Source: Natronorubrum thiooxidans (GTDB lineage: Archaea > Halobacteriota > Halobacteria > Halobacteriales > Natrialbaceae). Taken from it: a stretch of DNA of 64,000 bases. Both the position numbers and the translations under genes were made by a program. Positions 1 to 6,216 of the stretch are shown here, piece after piece; the stretch's first letter is position 1; each line of letters starts with the position of its first letter. Where the stretch lies: contig NZ_FTNR01000002.1 of NCBI RefSeq assembly GCF_900156475.1, positions 186,001-250,000 of the forward strand. Reading direction: 5' to 3'. The notes beneath the pieces are model-generated. The model had not been told where the DNA came from. It saw only the letters and a list, made by a program, of their open reading frames with translations, and ran no database searches.

Positions 1-657
1 AGTTGCCTCGCAGTCCTCGTAGAGCCACATGCCAAACTCGGGGACGGCATCGTCGTCGATACCGAACCAGTAGCCGCCCGAGGAGGTCTCCGAAAGCTCC
101 CCGACAGGTGCGGTCACCGGGCAGTCGGCGAGCAGTTCCTGTGTCGCCTCGAGCAGCGCGCGGTCGTCGTGGACGAACGAAATGCCGACGGTACCACTCG
201 ATGATTTGAAACAGATCGTCCCACAGCCCTCGAGCAGGCCACGAAGGAGTTCGCGATCGTGACTCGAGAACGCGCCGAAGCGGTAGTTGCCGCGGCCGTC
301 GACGGGCAGCGAGAGCACGCTGGTGCGACCCAACAGCTCCTCGCTGTCCTCGTCCTCGCCGATCGAAAGCGTGTACTCGTCTTCCGTGCGCGTGATCGAC
401 GTGTCGTGGGCGTACTCGCGGCTGCTCGTCTCGTGGTCGATGTCGCCGCCTGCGATCGCGGCGAGCACCTGCGCGGATTGCTCGTCGTTGGTCACGACCT
501 CGAGATGCTCACGGCGTCGCCGTTCGCCGTCCGTGGTTCTCGCTTCGCTCCGAACCACGCGCCCACTGCCGGCGACGTGCCCCCAGAGGTACGCGGTTGC
601 AGGATGGCCAACAAGCGGGTCAGCTGGAACCTCGATTTCACGTCGAGCGTCGCTCAT
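1..657 (-). CDS. LAGLIDADG-like protein in cobalamin operon (C-terminus off the window)
   Basis: Partial: 219 codons are visible and the reading frame is still open at position 1. The ATG overlaps the ferredoxin stop as ATGA, so it is the last visible gene of the cbi operon. The protein has two segments resembling the paired LAGLIDADG helices of monomeric homing endonucleases: residues 22-34 (AYLWGHVAGSGRV) and 136-148 (ELLRGLLEGCGTI), about 114 residues apart. In active enzymes the eighth residue of each motif is an acid; here it is Ser31 and Cys145, so DNA cleavage is unlikely. A hydrophobic stretch typical of the beta-strands after the helix follows motif 2 (residues 149-165). No intein or intron context is seen. 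Role unknown; it may be a fold-sharing DNA- or substrate-binding protein recruited to corrin synthesis. The motif match is by eye only. Confidence 0.75.
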   Translation of the reverse strand, partial: MSDARREIEVPADPLVGHPATAYLWGHVAGSGRVVRSEARTTDGERRRREHLEVVTNDEQSAQVLAAIAGGDIDHETSSREYAHDTSITRTEDEYTLSIGEDEDSEELLGRTSVLSLPVDGRGNYRFGAFSSHDRELLRGLLEGCGTICFKSSSGTVGISFVHDDRALLEATQELLADCPVTAPVGELSETSSGGYWFGIDDDAVPEFGMWLYEDCEAT

Positions 658-1963: not shown

Positions 1964-2839
1964 TCAGAAGTCGTCGACGTCACGCCCGCCGCGCGGGGTG
2001 ACGAGATATGTTCGGTCGTCGTTGCGCCAGGTGTCGGTCTCGTGGTTGCCGATGATCAGCGAGGTGCCCATCCCGGAGACCTTGTCGTCGTGGTCGGCGG
2101 CCTCGCCGAGCGTCGTAATGAACTGGCTCTCGCCGTTTCGGCCGGCATCTTCCCGGCCGGCGTCGTTGACGATGGCCACGTAGGCGTCGTCGGTCCGCTC
2201 TTCGCGGACGATTTCGACGGCCTTCTCGTAGTTTCGCCAGCAGTTGTAGAGGACGATCACGAAATCCGAAATCGCCGCAGCACGCAGTTTCTCCTCGATC
2301 TCGTCCCAGCCGCGCCACTTGTCCGACAGCGAGATCGTACAGAAGTCGTTACACAACGGCGCGCCGACGTTCGCTGCGCCGCCGAGTGCCGCCGTGAGTC
2401 CGGGGACGATCTCGATCGGCACGTCCGTCGCGTCCTCCTCCTCGGCCATCTTGAAGATGAGATCGGATTTCCCGTAAACGGAGGGATCACCGCCCGAGAC
2501 GTGGGCGACGTCTTTGCCCTCGCGAACGTAGTCGAACGCTGCGCGAGCGAGTTCGATCTGTCGACCCATCGTCGAGCGGACGATCTCCTGTTCGAATCCA
2601 TCGTCGCGTGTCGCGACGCCGTCGTCGTCGACGGCCTCTTTCGAGGGCAGTGTGCCGTCGTCGCGCAGGAACTCCTGATAGAGACTCGAGGCGATGACTA
2701 CGTCCGCCGATTCGATGACCTCTTTGGCCCGCTTGGTCATGTGCTCGGGTAGCCCGGGCCCGATGCCGACGACGTAGAGGGTGCCGTGGTCGTCGGGGGT
2801 GCCGCCGGCAGCGGTTGCGGCGTCAGCGTCGGAACTCAT
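1964..2839 (-). CDS. cbiH: CbiH-type precorrin-3B/cobalt-precorrin-3 C17-methyltransferase, first copy
   Basis: A 291-residue tetrapyrrole methylase. The VVGIGPGLPEHMT loop at about residues 22-34, the SGGDPSVYGKS motif, the IVPGLTAALGGAANVGAP segment and the C-terminal TDTWRNDDRTYLVTPRGG resemble CbiH/CobJ. It is predicted to methylate C17 with ring contraction of cobalt-precorrin-3. The start at 2839 overlaps the cbiG stop as ATGA, which decides it over the longer upstream open frame. A second, clearly diverged CbiH follows directly, so the two copies may have split roles or act as a heteromer; which one carries out the C17 reaction cannot be told from sequence. Confidence 0.92.
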   Translation of the reverse strand: MSSDADAATAAGGTPDDHGTLYVVGIGPGLPEHMTKRAKEVIESADVVIASSLYQEFLRDDGTLPSKEAVDDDGVATRDDGFEQEIVRSTMGRQIELARAAFDYVREGKDVAHVSGGDPSVYGKSDLIFKMAEEEDATDVPIEIVPGLTAALGGAANVGAPLCNDFCTISLSDKWRGWDEIEEKLRAAAISDFVIVLYNCWRNYEKAVEIVREERTDDAYVAIVNDAGREDAGRNGESQFITTLGEAADHDDKVSGMGTSLIIGNHETDTWRNDDRTYLVTPRGGRDVDDF

Positions 2840-3819
2840 CGGCCGATCGCCACCGTGACCTCGTTTTCGTAGCCGATCTTCTCGAGGACCAGTTCCCGTT
2901 CGGCCCCGCCGGCGATCGCGGAGGCCTCGGAGACGCCGGGCCAGCCGATCAGCTCCTTCGATTTCGACGGTGTCGGGCCCTCGTGGTCGAGCAGGGTTTC
3001 CTTGTCGAACGCAACGACGCCGAGATCGAGTTTCTGGGCCGCCTCGAGCAGCCCCTCCTCGTCTTCCTTTCGGGTCGCCGTGGCGACGAACTCGACGTCC
3101 TCGAGGTCGTAGTTGGTCTGCTCGAGGGCGTCTTCCCAGGCTGCGATGAACGACTCCGTGCTCGCGCCGGAGACGCTCCCGGTGCCGATGACGACACCCT
3201 CGTCTTTGTTGCGCTTGAGAACGGTGACGTCGTCGCCGACGAGGACGGCCTTGGGGCCCTCGAGTCGGGCCACGGGGCCGAGGTTGTCGTCTAACACGGC
3301 GAGGTTCGTCTTCACGGTCGAGTCGCCGTTGACGACGTGGGTGTCCATCGCCTTCGCCTTCGATTCGACTCCCTGCTTGCCGGCGGCCTCGCTCGCGGTG
3401 GTCATCGCCGGGATCGCCCCCATCGTCGCCAGATCCTGTGCGACCTGGTTCGCGCCGTGGTGGCCGCCCGTGATCGGGATGGCCCACGTCAGTTCCTCGT
3501 CGACGACACAGATCGCGGGGTCGTCCCACTTGTCGTCTAATAGGTGGGCCGTCTTGCGCATCGCGATTCCCGATGCCATCAGGCCGATAAAGCAGTCGTA
3601 CTCGCCCCAGTGTTCCTCGAAGACGTCGCCGTGGTACTCGAGGATCTCGATCGTCTCGTAGCGATCCTCGAGTTCGGCTTTGATCTCCTCGGCAGTATCC
3701 ATCTTGCGCTCGAAGGAGATGATCGCGATCTCCTCGGCGACTTCGCCGTCCGAATCCGGCGTCGAACAGTGGCCGCCCGAATCCGTCTCCGTACTCGAGT
3801 TGTCGTCGTCAGTGCTCAT
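2836..3819 (-). CDS. cbiG: CbiG, cobalt-precorrin-5A hydrolase
   Basis: 327 residues. CbiG opens the delta-lactone of cobalt-precorrin-5A and releases the extruded two-carbon fragment as acetaldehyde. The central region (DCFIGLMASGIAMR, then a VVDEELTWAIPITGGHHGAN segment of about residues 106-126) matches the CbiG core, and the C-terminal part (GTGSVSGASTESF; GVSEASAIAGGAERE) matches the CbiG/CobE-like domain. The first 30 residues are an acidic Ser/Asp-rich extension with the local sequence GGHC. The gene sits 2 nt after cbiF and overlaps cbiH by 4 nt. Confidence 0.93.
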   Translation of the reverse strand: MSTDDDNSSTETDSGGHCSTPDSDGEVAEEIAIISFERKMDTAEEIKAELEDRYETIEILEYHGDVFEEHWGEYDCFIGLMASGIAMRKTAHLLDDKWDDPAICVVDEELTWAIPITGGHHGANQVAQDLATMGAIPAMTTASEAAGKQGVESKAKAMDTHVVNGDSTVKTNLAVLDDNLGPVARLEGPKAVLVGDDVTVLKRNKDEGVVIGTGSVSGASTESFIAAWEDALEQTNYDLEDVEFVATATRKEDEEGLLEAAQKLDLGVVAFDKETLLDHEGPTPSKSKELIGWPGVSEASAIAGGAERELVLEKIGYENEVTVAIGR

Positions 3820-3821
3820 GA

Positions 3822-4766
3822 TTAGTCACTCTCGGCTTCGTCAGCGTCGTTTGCACCGCGGTTCGCCCAGTCACCGTAGAGGAACGAGCGTTCATAGCCC
3901 GCACCAGTCACGGCGTCGCCGATGACGACCATCGCCGAGGCGCGATAGCCCGCCTCCTCGACCTTGTCGGCGATGTCGCCGATCGAGCCAACGATGACGT
4001 CCTCGTCGGGCCAGGAGGCGTGATAGATCACCGCAACTGGCGTCTCGGGGTCGTGGTCGTCTGCGAGCAGCCGATCCATCGTATCGCGAACGGCGTGTGT
4101 GCCGAGATAGATACAGGTCGTTACGTCGCCCATCTCCACGAACTCGGAGATGTGGTCTTCCTCCTCGGTCAGGGTCTTGCCCTGTGGCCGAGTGAACGCG
4201 ACGTGGTTCGAGACCTCGTTGAGCGTCAGTTGGGTCCGTAGCGTCGCGCTGGCCGCGAAGGCCGACGTGACACCGGGCACGAAGTAGGTCGGAACACCCT
4301 CGTGTTCCAGGGCGTCCATCTGCTCGAGTGCGGCCCCGTAGATCGCGGGGTCGCCACTGTGCAGTCGAACCACATTGTCGCCGTCCTCGTAGGCGTCCCG
4401 CATGAGCGGGATCAGTTCCTCGAGGTCTTTGCCAACCGAATTGACCAACTCGGCGTGGGCGCAGTACTCGTCTAACAGTTCACTGTTGACTAGCGACCCC
4501 GCGTGGACGACGAGGTCGGCTGCCTCGAGCAGTTCCTTCCCGGCGACGGTCAGCAGCCGCGGGTTGCCGGGACCAGCGCCGACGAAGGGGATTCCCTCCT
4601 GTTCGTCGCCGGCGTTGTGGTCGAAAATCCGGTCGTCGAGTTCCTCACGGCGGCGCTCCCCCTGTGTGTCGATCGCCTCCTGGGGATCGCCACCGTCGGA
4701 TCGCAGTTTCGGTTCCGTCTCGATTACTGTCTCCGTCGTCTCGTCGGGTGGTGTCGTCTCTCCCAT
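3822..4766 (-). CDS. cbiF: CbiF, cobalt-precorrin-4 C11-methyltransferase
   Basis: 314 residues. It uses SAM to methylate C11 of cobalt-precorrin-4. After an acidic N-terminal extension of about 55 residues come the family hallmarks: FVGAGPGNPRLLTVAG at about 60-75, VVHAGSLVN, VRLHSGDPAIYGA, the YFVPGVTSAFAASATL segment, and the VAFTRPQGKT motif that separates CbiF/CobM from the other methylases of the pathway. Its ATG shares one base with the TGA of cbiL (TGATG), which fixes the start and indicates coupled translation. It ends 2 nt before cbiG. Confidence 0.95.
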   Translation of the reverse strand: MGETTPPDETTETVIETEPKLRSDGGDPQEAIDTQGERRREELDDRIFDHNAGDEQEGIPFVGAGPGNPRLLTVAGKELLEAADLVVHAGSLVNSELLDEYCAHAELVNSVGKDLEELIPLMRDAYEDGDNVVRLHSGDPAIYGAALEQMDALEHEGVPTYFVPGVTSAFAASATLRTQLTLNEVSNHVAFTRPQGKTLTEEEDHISEFVEMGDVTTCIYLGTHAVRDTMDRLLADDHDPETPVAVIYHASWPDEDVIVGSIGDIADKVEEAGYRASAMVVIGDAVTGAGYERSFLYGDWANRGANDADEAESD

Positions 4767-5635
4767 CAGTACCAGTGTTGTTCACAGTCGCCATGTTCGA
4801 ACCCTTCCGAGCGCTCGAGTTCGTGCAGTTCGCTCCCGAGTCCGACCGGTTCACCGGCCGTGGTCGTCTCCGCTCGAGTGCTCTCGTTGCTTCTGGTGCC
4901 GCTCTCGCGCTCGCTCGAGGGCATACTCGAGCCGTCCGAGCTGTCGGCTTCTCGCTGGAACGCCGCCGTCGCCTGCTCGACCTCGAGAGTTTCTTTTTCG
5001 GCGTAGGCGAGCGTGTAGTAGTCGCGCTCGTCGATCTCCTCGGGGTCGTCGGTGATTATCGTCTCGCCCTGTTCCATGAACAGTCGGCGGCCGTAGGTCA
5101 CCTCGTAGCCGGCGTCGACGAGGCCGTCGTGAGTCGCCGGTGCGTCGGTGACCTTGAAGAGGATCATCCGGTCGGGACCCGTCGGACTCGTTCCGTTTGC
5201 GGCCTCGCGAAGCGAGAGTCCCGCGCCGGCTTCGATCTCGACGCCCATCGCGGTCGCAAACGCCGTTACGGCGCTCACGCCGGGGACGATCTCCAGTTCG
5301 ACGTTCGGATGAAAGGCATCGATCGTCCGCCGCAAGTGGCCGAACGTCGAGTAGACGTTCGGATCGCCGAGCGTGACGAAGGCGACGTCACCGTCGCGTG
5401 CGTTCGGGGCGATCTCTGCGGCAGCCTCCTTCCATGCCGACCGCAGCTTTTCTTCGTCTTTCGTCATCGGGAACTCGAGATCCCCGATCTTCGACTCGTC
5501 GACGTGGTTCAGTGCGACCGTCCGCGAGAGTCGACCCGGCGAGTAGACCACGTCGACGGACTCGAGCACCTGCTTCCCGCGAACGGTCACGAGGTTGGCT
5601 TCGCCGGGGCCGAGGCCAACGCCGTAGAGCGTCAT
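4766..5635 (-). CDS. cbiL: CbiL, cobalt-factor II C20-methyltransferase
   Basis: 289 residues. The N-terminal GVGLGPGEANLVTVRG loop, FVTLGDPNVYSTFGHL and the VPGVSAVTAFATAMG segment identify the C20-methyltransferase (CbiL/CobI) group. The catalytic domain ends near residue 225. The last 65 residues are a charged, low-complexity Ser/Glu/Thr-rich tail ending in a HGDCEQHW sequence, which is extra compared with bacterial CbiL of about 230-240 residues. The start overlaps the cbiT stop by 4 nt (ATGA), and the stop overlaps the cbiF start by 1 nt. Confidence 0.94.
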   Translation of the reverse strand: MTLYGVGLGPGEANLVTVRGKQVLESVDVVYSPGRLSRTVALNHVDESKIGDLEFPMTKDEEKLRSAWKEAAAEIAPNARDGDVAFVTLGDPNVYSTFGHLRRTIDAFHPNVELEIVPGVSAVTAFATAMGVEIEAGAGLSLREAANGTSPTGPDRMILFKVTDAPATHDGLVDAGYEVTYGRRLFMEQGETIITDDPEEIDERDYYTLAYAEKETLEVEQATAAFQREADSSDGSSMPSSERESGTRSNESTRAETTTAGEPVGLGSELHELERSEGFEHGDCEQHWY

Positions 5636-6216
5636 CGCTGACTCCCCTCGCTCTTCGAGTCCCCTGGCGTTGCACTCCCGACCAGCATATAGACCGGGTT
5701 GTCCGAGTTGAAACTCGTCGCGCCGGCGAGTTCGTAGCCGTGGCTCACCTGGAACTGGACGACCTCCTCGAGAATCCCGCGCTCGCGGAACGCCTCGGTC
5801 GCCTTCCCCGCGACCTCGAGTCGCGAGACGTTCATCACGACACGGTCGACCTCGGTGTCGACGGCGTGATCGAGGACGGCCTCGAAGTTGCGACTGCCGC
5901 CCAGAAAGAGCGCGTCGGCATCGTCGGGCAGTTCCGCCGGCGCTTCCGCGTTCCGGAGTTCGACGGCCGCTCGAATCGCGTCCTCGTTGGCAGCCAGATT
6001 CCGCTCGGTCGTCTCGAGTCGTTCGGGTTTCCGCTCGAGGGCGGTCACTCGGCCGGCTCGCTGTGCGGCTTCGATCGTCACGGCTCCCGTACAGGAGCCG
6101 ACCTCCGCGAAGTGGTCGTCGGCCTCGAGTGCGAGCTTCGAGTGGACGACAGCCCGGACCTCCGGTTTCGTGGGTCCGGCCTTCGCGTCGTGTGGCAGCG
6201 CGATAGGTGGCATCAT
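5632..6216 (-). CDS. cbiT: CbiT, cobalt-precorrin-6B C15-methyltransferase (decarboxylating)
   Basis: 194 residues. It is a class I Rossmann-fold SAM methyltransferase that methylates C15 and decarboxylates the C12 acetate. The SAM loop VGSCTGAVTIEAA lies at about residues 39-51, followed by VTALERKPER for the acidic ribose contact and a DADALFLGG segment. An N-terminal TKPEVRAVVHSKL matches CbiT substrate-side sequence. The C5 partner cbiE is encoded separately about 3.5 kb away (9685-10476) rather than fused as in CobL. It is the first gene of the cbiT-L-F-G-H-H-fdx unit and has its own TATA-like element, which supports the start at 6216. Confidence 0.93.
   Translation of the reverse strand: MMPPIALPHDAKAGPTKPEVRAVVHSKLALEADDHFAEVGSCTGAVTIEAAQRAGRVTALERKPERLETTERNLAANEDAIRAAVELRNAEAPAELPDDADALFLGGSRNFEAVLDHAVDTEVDRVVMNVSRLEVAGKATEAFRERGILEEVVQFQVSHGYELAGATSFNSDNPVYMLVGSATPGDSKSEGSQR

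Follow-up and report, generated by a model that had tools for sequence, protein, structure and literature searches.

Why should a protein with the paired helices of a LAGLIDADG homing endonuclease be encoded inside an operon for cobalamin (B12) biosynthesis? The question is raised by a gene at the very start of a 64 000 nucleotide stretch of the Natronorubrum thiooxidans genome (NZ_FTNR01000002.1, positions 186 001–250 000), here called the window. When the neighbouring DNA was read, the LAGLIDADG-like gene was found to be 242 codons long and on the minus strand (L002:9929–10657). Positions 1–657 of the window hold the first 219 of the 242 codons, and the gene continues for 71 bases before window base 1. 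The relevant features of the window, all on the minus strand, are as follows.

1–657, minus: LAGLIDADG-fold protein (HVO_B0055 by synteny), truncated by the window edge
211–213, minus: codon of Cys149, the second invariant cysteine, in the strand (residues 146–151) after motif 2
214–252, minus: LAGLIDADG motif 2, residues 136–148, ELLRGLLEGCGTI; position 8 is Cys145 (codon 223–225)
556–594, minus: LAGLIDADG motif 1, residues 22–34, AYLWGHVAGSGRV; position 8 is Ser31 (codon 565–567)
654–920, minus: small ferredoxin (Fer4_15) with three near-invariant cysteines (CDGIFAC...CP); ATGA overlap with the LAGLIDADG-like gene
923–1951, minus: cbiH2, with a Ser-rich N-terminal tail containing KCG(A/G)S repeats at about 1733–1909
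1964–2854, minus: cbiH1, from homology and gene order
2836–3819, minus: cbiG, the marker for the cobalt-early pathway
3822–4766, minus: cbiF, from homology and gene order
4766–5635, minus: cbiL, from homology and gene order
5632–6216, minus: cbiT, the first gene of the cluster, from homology and gene order

The operon has the order cbiT-cbiL-cbiF-cbiG-cbiH1-cbiH2-ferredoxin-[LAGLIDADG-like gene]-cbiX-DUF3209-PQQ-like, and cbiX, the cobalt chelatase gene, is immediately downstream of the LAGLIDADG-like gene. The translational coupling to the ferredoxin reported in the first-pass annotation is seen in the sequence, where the ferredoxin stop and the start of the LAGLIDADG-like gene overlap as ATGA. 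Of 63 related loci, 48 have ATGA at this start codon and 20 have an ATGA overlap where the gene ends. The cbiX/cbiH neighbourhood, whose conservation had been named as a check, is conserved, as cbiH2, fdx and cbiX accompany the gene in 63/63 gene-positive loci within the reach of each contig; in the genome at hand, cbiX lies outside the window. HVO_B0057 to HVO_B0052 of Haloferax volcanii have the same order (cbiH2, ferredoxin, LAGLIDADG-like gene, cbiX1, DUF3209, PQQ-like), and by synteny the gene in the window is HVO_B0055. The published Haloferax annotation, the one paper found to name HVO_B0055, lists it as 'function unassigned' and does not mention its fold (PMC8305020). The protein is a 'hypothetical protein' in some NCBI records and a 'cobalamin biosynthesis protein' in others. 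Just past the cluster of Halorubrum lacusprofundi are CbtA, CbtB and a gene with a (2Fe-2S) ferredoxin domain (L177:10970–12265).

An AlphaFold2 model of the window protein, built with 56 aligned homologues (pLDDT 88.4, pTM 0.87), consists of two alpha-beta-beta-alpha-beta-beta repeats, with the motif helices at residues 19–31 and 127–145 and a single long helix at the C-terminus. When the model was compared with the PDB using Foldseek, the top 50 matches were LAGLIDADG nucleases, maturases or inteins throughout (best E 7e-7; TM 0.5–0.6). Pfam LAGLIDADG_3 was matched by 31/56 homologues (best E 6e-5), and by the window protein alone with an E of 0.048 that is under Pfam's cut-off. An hhalign comparison with haloarchaeal intein nucleases put the two motifs in register, at a probability of only 10% despite an E of 0.003. 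Searching PDB sequences with the protein or with its profile returned only noise, and an NCBIfam search assigned the window protein to no family. The same fold was predicted for the most divergent homologue (32–39% identity; AlphaFold2, 32-homologue alignment that includes the window protein), which had I-DmoI and WhiA among its best PDB matches, WhiA (3hyi) being second with a TM of 0.58. The two LAGLIDADG-spaced helices that had been read from the letters of one chain are not a chance resemblance, given the LAGLIDADG_3 matches of the homologues, the model and the PDB matches, and comparison with homing-endonuclease folds gave the paired LAGLIDADG arrangement. The first hairpin of the window protein carries an insertion of approximately 13 residues (35–47; window 517–555, minus strand), which 9/76 homologues have.

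The position 8 residues given by the first-pass annotation, Ser31 and Cys145, are correct. Its description of the protein as lacking catalytic acids holds for motif 2, where the acid is gone in 76/76 homologues, but not throughout for motif 1, where position 8 (residue 31) is occupied by S (47 homologues), D (15), G (7) or N (7). An active homing endonuclease would be expected to carry an acid at position 8 of both motifs, and the family has C145 in every member and S, D, G or N in motif 1. As a control, haloarchaeal intein nucleases were examined, and these retain D or E at position 8 of motif 2. Cys145 and Cys149 are both invariant (76/76), as are Arg139, Gly140, Glu143 and Gly146, and the dN/dS of the window gene (0.12–0.24) indicates purifying selection. 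The catalytic acid of motif 2 is replaced, not decayed. By the usual LAGLIDADG alignment, Cys145 would stand at the place of the catalytic Asp20 of I-CreI and Cys149 would face the saddle from the following strand, and the predicted structure would bring the two cysteines near each other.

Among 194 Halobacteria genomes, the LAGLIDADG-like gene was found in 102 and cbiG in 106. The gene was present in 102/106 cbiG-positive and 0/88 cbiG-negative genomes (Fisher's exact test, about 4e-51, a value that ignores relatedness). In an extended genome set it was present in 182/190 cbiG-positive genomes; the two genome sources may contribute some loci of the same species. Outside Halobacteria, no homologue was found among 295 genomes sampled across the phylum, and none was found in viral contigs. 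The gene co-occurs almost completely with the pathway and keeps its place in the operon, and so behaves as a fixed accessory of the haloarchaeal cobalt-early B12 pathway. Both the LAGLIDADG fold and domestication of the protein are well supported. The co-option of a homing-endonuclease fold by a metabolic operon, originally proposed from the letters, is supported by the fold, the conserved operon place, purifying selection and co-inheritance with the pathway; as had also been stated, the gene is in neither an intron nor an intein and is free-standing at a fixed position.

The eight cbiG-positive genomes that lack the gene are G021, G033, G035, G043, G524, G568, G567 and G604. The cbi clusters of seven were read, with G567 left out, and six of these (G033, G035, G043, G524, G568 and G604) have a compact cluster without the ferredoxin, the LAGLIDADG-like gene, the CbiX [2Fe-2S] domain, DUF3209 or the PQQ gene. 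A compact cluster type lacking all four orphan genes, namely the LAGLIDADG-like gene, the ferredoxin, DUF3209 and the PQQ gene, was seen at L116, L117, L118, L135, L136 and L137. In 62/62 readable gene-positive loci, and in 0/6 compact clusters, CbiH2 begins with a tail that is rich in Ser and contains one to five cysteines; this tail could be a flexible metal-binding arm. As the gene-negative clusters represent about four lineages (G033; G035/G043 with G524/G568; G021; G604/G567), these associations rest on few events. A haem-copper oxidase gene was present in every gene-positive genome tested and absent from G033, G035 and G043. A restriction of the LAGLIDADG-like gene to aerobes fits these three genomes and is broken by the other five gene-negative genomes (G021, G524, G568, G567 and G604), which have the oxidase. 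Thus, missing oxygen respiration accounts for only part of the pattern.

The type of CbiX goes with the presence or absence of the gene. In 5/5 compact clusters that have cbiX, the chelatase has a C-terminal tail rich in His and lacks the [2Fe-2S] domain, while 69 of the 70 gene-positive CbiX sequences read have the [2Fe-2S] domain and no His-rich tail. In G021, an extra His-tailed CbiX (L115:11703–12644) is exactly in the place of the LAGLIDADG-like gene, overlaps the ferredoxin by ATGA in the same way, and adjoins the usual CbiX. Three genomes of the same genus retain the LAGLIDADG-like gene and lack the extra CbiX there. The exclusion is not strict, as L076 combines the LAGLIDADG-like gene, the ferredoxin and a His-tailed CbiX at one locus. 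The cbi clusters read in G034 and G604 contain no cbiX, which may be elsewhere in the genome. In G034, the LAGLIDADG-like gene is outside the cbi cluster and lies between two cation-efflux transporter genes on the same strand, in the order CDF transporter, LAGLIDADG-like gene, rhodanese, CDF transporter (L119:6445–9454). This detached homologue retains Cys149, and the G034 cbi cluster still holds the ferredoxin and the CbiH2 Cys tail. The detached copy provides a metal-handling placement that is independent of cbiX synteny. The same G034 stretch also contains a dCTP-deaminase-like ORF that seemingly includes an intein (L119:11362–13443). In G050 the LAGLIDADG-like gene is present and the ferredoxin was not detected at the locus. 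An apparent LAGLIDADG-CbiX fusion in G642 was rejected, as it is due to a frame change within the gene.

A thiolate metal or cofactor site is the best single explanation, since the gene goes with CbiX type and with metal transporters and a cysteine pair has replaced the Mg-binding acid. We favour, with a probability of roughly 0.4, a domesticated, non-cutting LAGLIDADG-fold protein whose thiolate site would serve cobalt insertion as an accessory of the cobalt-early B12 pathway. The former Mg-binding centre between the two motifs would have become a thiolate site (Cys145, Cys149) that may bind Co(II) or an intermediate and so aid cobalt insertion by the neighbouring CbiX. The ferredoxin, probably a partner in this role, and the [2Fe-2S] domain of CbiX would keep the site or the metal reduced, and in clusters without the LAGLIDADG-like gene the His-rich tail of CbiX would take over the holding of cobalt. 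A more specific version is more tentative: the Mg site of the endonuclease fold would have been rebuilt into a Cys site, and this would supply or protect the chelatase where other clusters use the His-rich tail. Genomic context makes cobalt metallochaperone activity (Co(II) binding and transfer to the chelatase) a candidate function. The linkage of the gene to a block of Cys and Fe-S features also speaks for a cobalt role. Against it, L076 keeps the gene alongside a His-tailed CbiX, the gene-negative cases are few, and the G034 and G604 clusters were read without cbiX. A full metal site is rarely built from two cysteines alone. For CbiX-L, metal storage and delivery have been proposed as the function of the His-rich region, but deletion of this region left cobalt insertion in vitro unaffected (PMC7689651), and a CbiK-type early pathway has no need of a metallochaperone (PMC10206600).

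The main rival is that the protein is a redox or scaffold partner of the co-translated ferredoxin, shielding the oxygen-sensitive intermediates of the cobalt-early pathway in aerobic cells but not itself delivering cobalt, whether through thiol redox, as an Fe-S ligand or as a docking platform. The ATGA coupling of the two genes, the loss of the Cys/Fe-S block as a unit and the absence of that block from all three cbiG-positive genomes without a haem-copper oxidase are consistent with this reading; a 'structural factor', as the first-pass annotation put it, is possible. We nevertheless consider it somewhat unlikely, since five genomes with the oxidase also lack the LAGLIDADG-like gene, G050 has the gene with no ferredoxin detected at the locus, and in G034 the ferredoxin is still in the cbi cluster but the gene is among metal transporters. 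Regulation of the cbi genes by non-cutting DNA binding through the LAGLIDADG saddle, the other role originally suggested, is distinctly less probable. LAGLIDADG folds bind DNA, a conserved basic stretch (SRRRK) is present in the C-terminal helix, and a known transcription factor, WhiA, contains a degenerate LAGLIDADG domain (PMC3781837). However, a Pfam search found neither the DNA-binding HTH domain of WhiA nor any other DNA-binding domain here, and the putative DNA-facing strands are poorer in basic residues than those of haloarchaeal intein nucleases, with K and R making up 0.7% of the last strand pair compared with 12.5%. The cysteine pair among the invariant motif 2 residues, the G034 copy away from the cbi genes, and the tracking of CbiX type and Cys/Fe-S features by the gene also tell against a regulator. 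The shortness of the beta hairpins was dropped as an argument against DNA binding, as those of haloarchaeal intein nucleases are of similar length.

Slightly less probable again is an enzyme that fills one of two gaps in the pathway, by CbiD-type methylation or CbiJ-type reduction. The 2021 Haloferax annotation paper (PMC8305020) put forward the four orphan cluster genes, among them the LAGLIDADG-like gene, as fillers of these haloarchaeal gaps. Neither CbiD nor CbiJ was present when the 194 Halobacteria genomes were searched, a set that does not include G524, G568, G567 and G604. The absence of both proteins from this set is in keeping with a gap, and their intended use as complementary markers failed since no sampled haloarchaeon has either. 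Yet G033, G035 and G043 have cbiT-L-F-G-H1-H2-X without the four orphans and also lack CbiD and CbiJ. Gap filling by the orphans is therefore not a requirement in every genome. The LAGLIDADG fold is not known to have a SAM or NAD(P)H site. Finally, it is very improbable that the operon has been invaded by a homing endonuclease that is, or until recently was, active. Only the fold speaks for it, and the motif 2 acid is Cys in all homologues, there is neither an intein or intron setting nor a viral relative, no copy is found in genomes without a cbi cluster, and the gene is under purifying selection.

The window family shares the two-repeat fold and in-register paired motifs of LAGLIDADG homing endonucleases (I-DmoI, I-OnuI, I-SceI, PI-PfuI; LAGLIDADG_3), but has an invariant Cys instead of the motif 2 catalytic acid and is free-standing in a metabolic operon without sign of mobility. 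Few domesticated LAGLIDADG proteins have been described, and none of them is known to act on anything but DNA or RNA. WhiA (DUF199) likewise contains a domesticated, degenerate LAGLIDADG domain that has lost its metal-binding and catalytic residues (PMC3781837). Unlike the window protein, WhiA has a C-terminal DNA-binding HTH; it also belongs to another domain of life and another pathway, and the invariant Cys pair marks the haloarchaeal family. Haloarchaeal CbiX shares MxCxxC and, in some cases, a His-rich tail with CbiX-L of Bacillus megaterium, which has an Fe-S centre and a His-rich tail, whereas gene-positive haloarchaeal CbiX has the [2Fe-2S] domain instead of the tail. No literature joining LAGLIDADG, homing endonucleases and cobalamin biosynthesis was found.

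The cobalt role proposed here bears on how the cobalt-early pathway operates in aerobic haloarchaea. The findings also bear on whether orphan cluster genes fill the CbiD and CbiJ gaps, against which three genomes argue. HVO_B0055, so far an orphan in a model organism amenable to genetics, gains a fold and a testable role.
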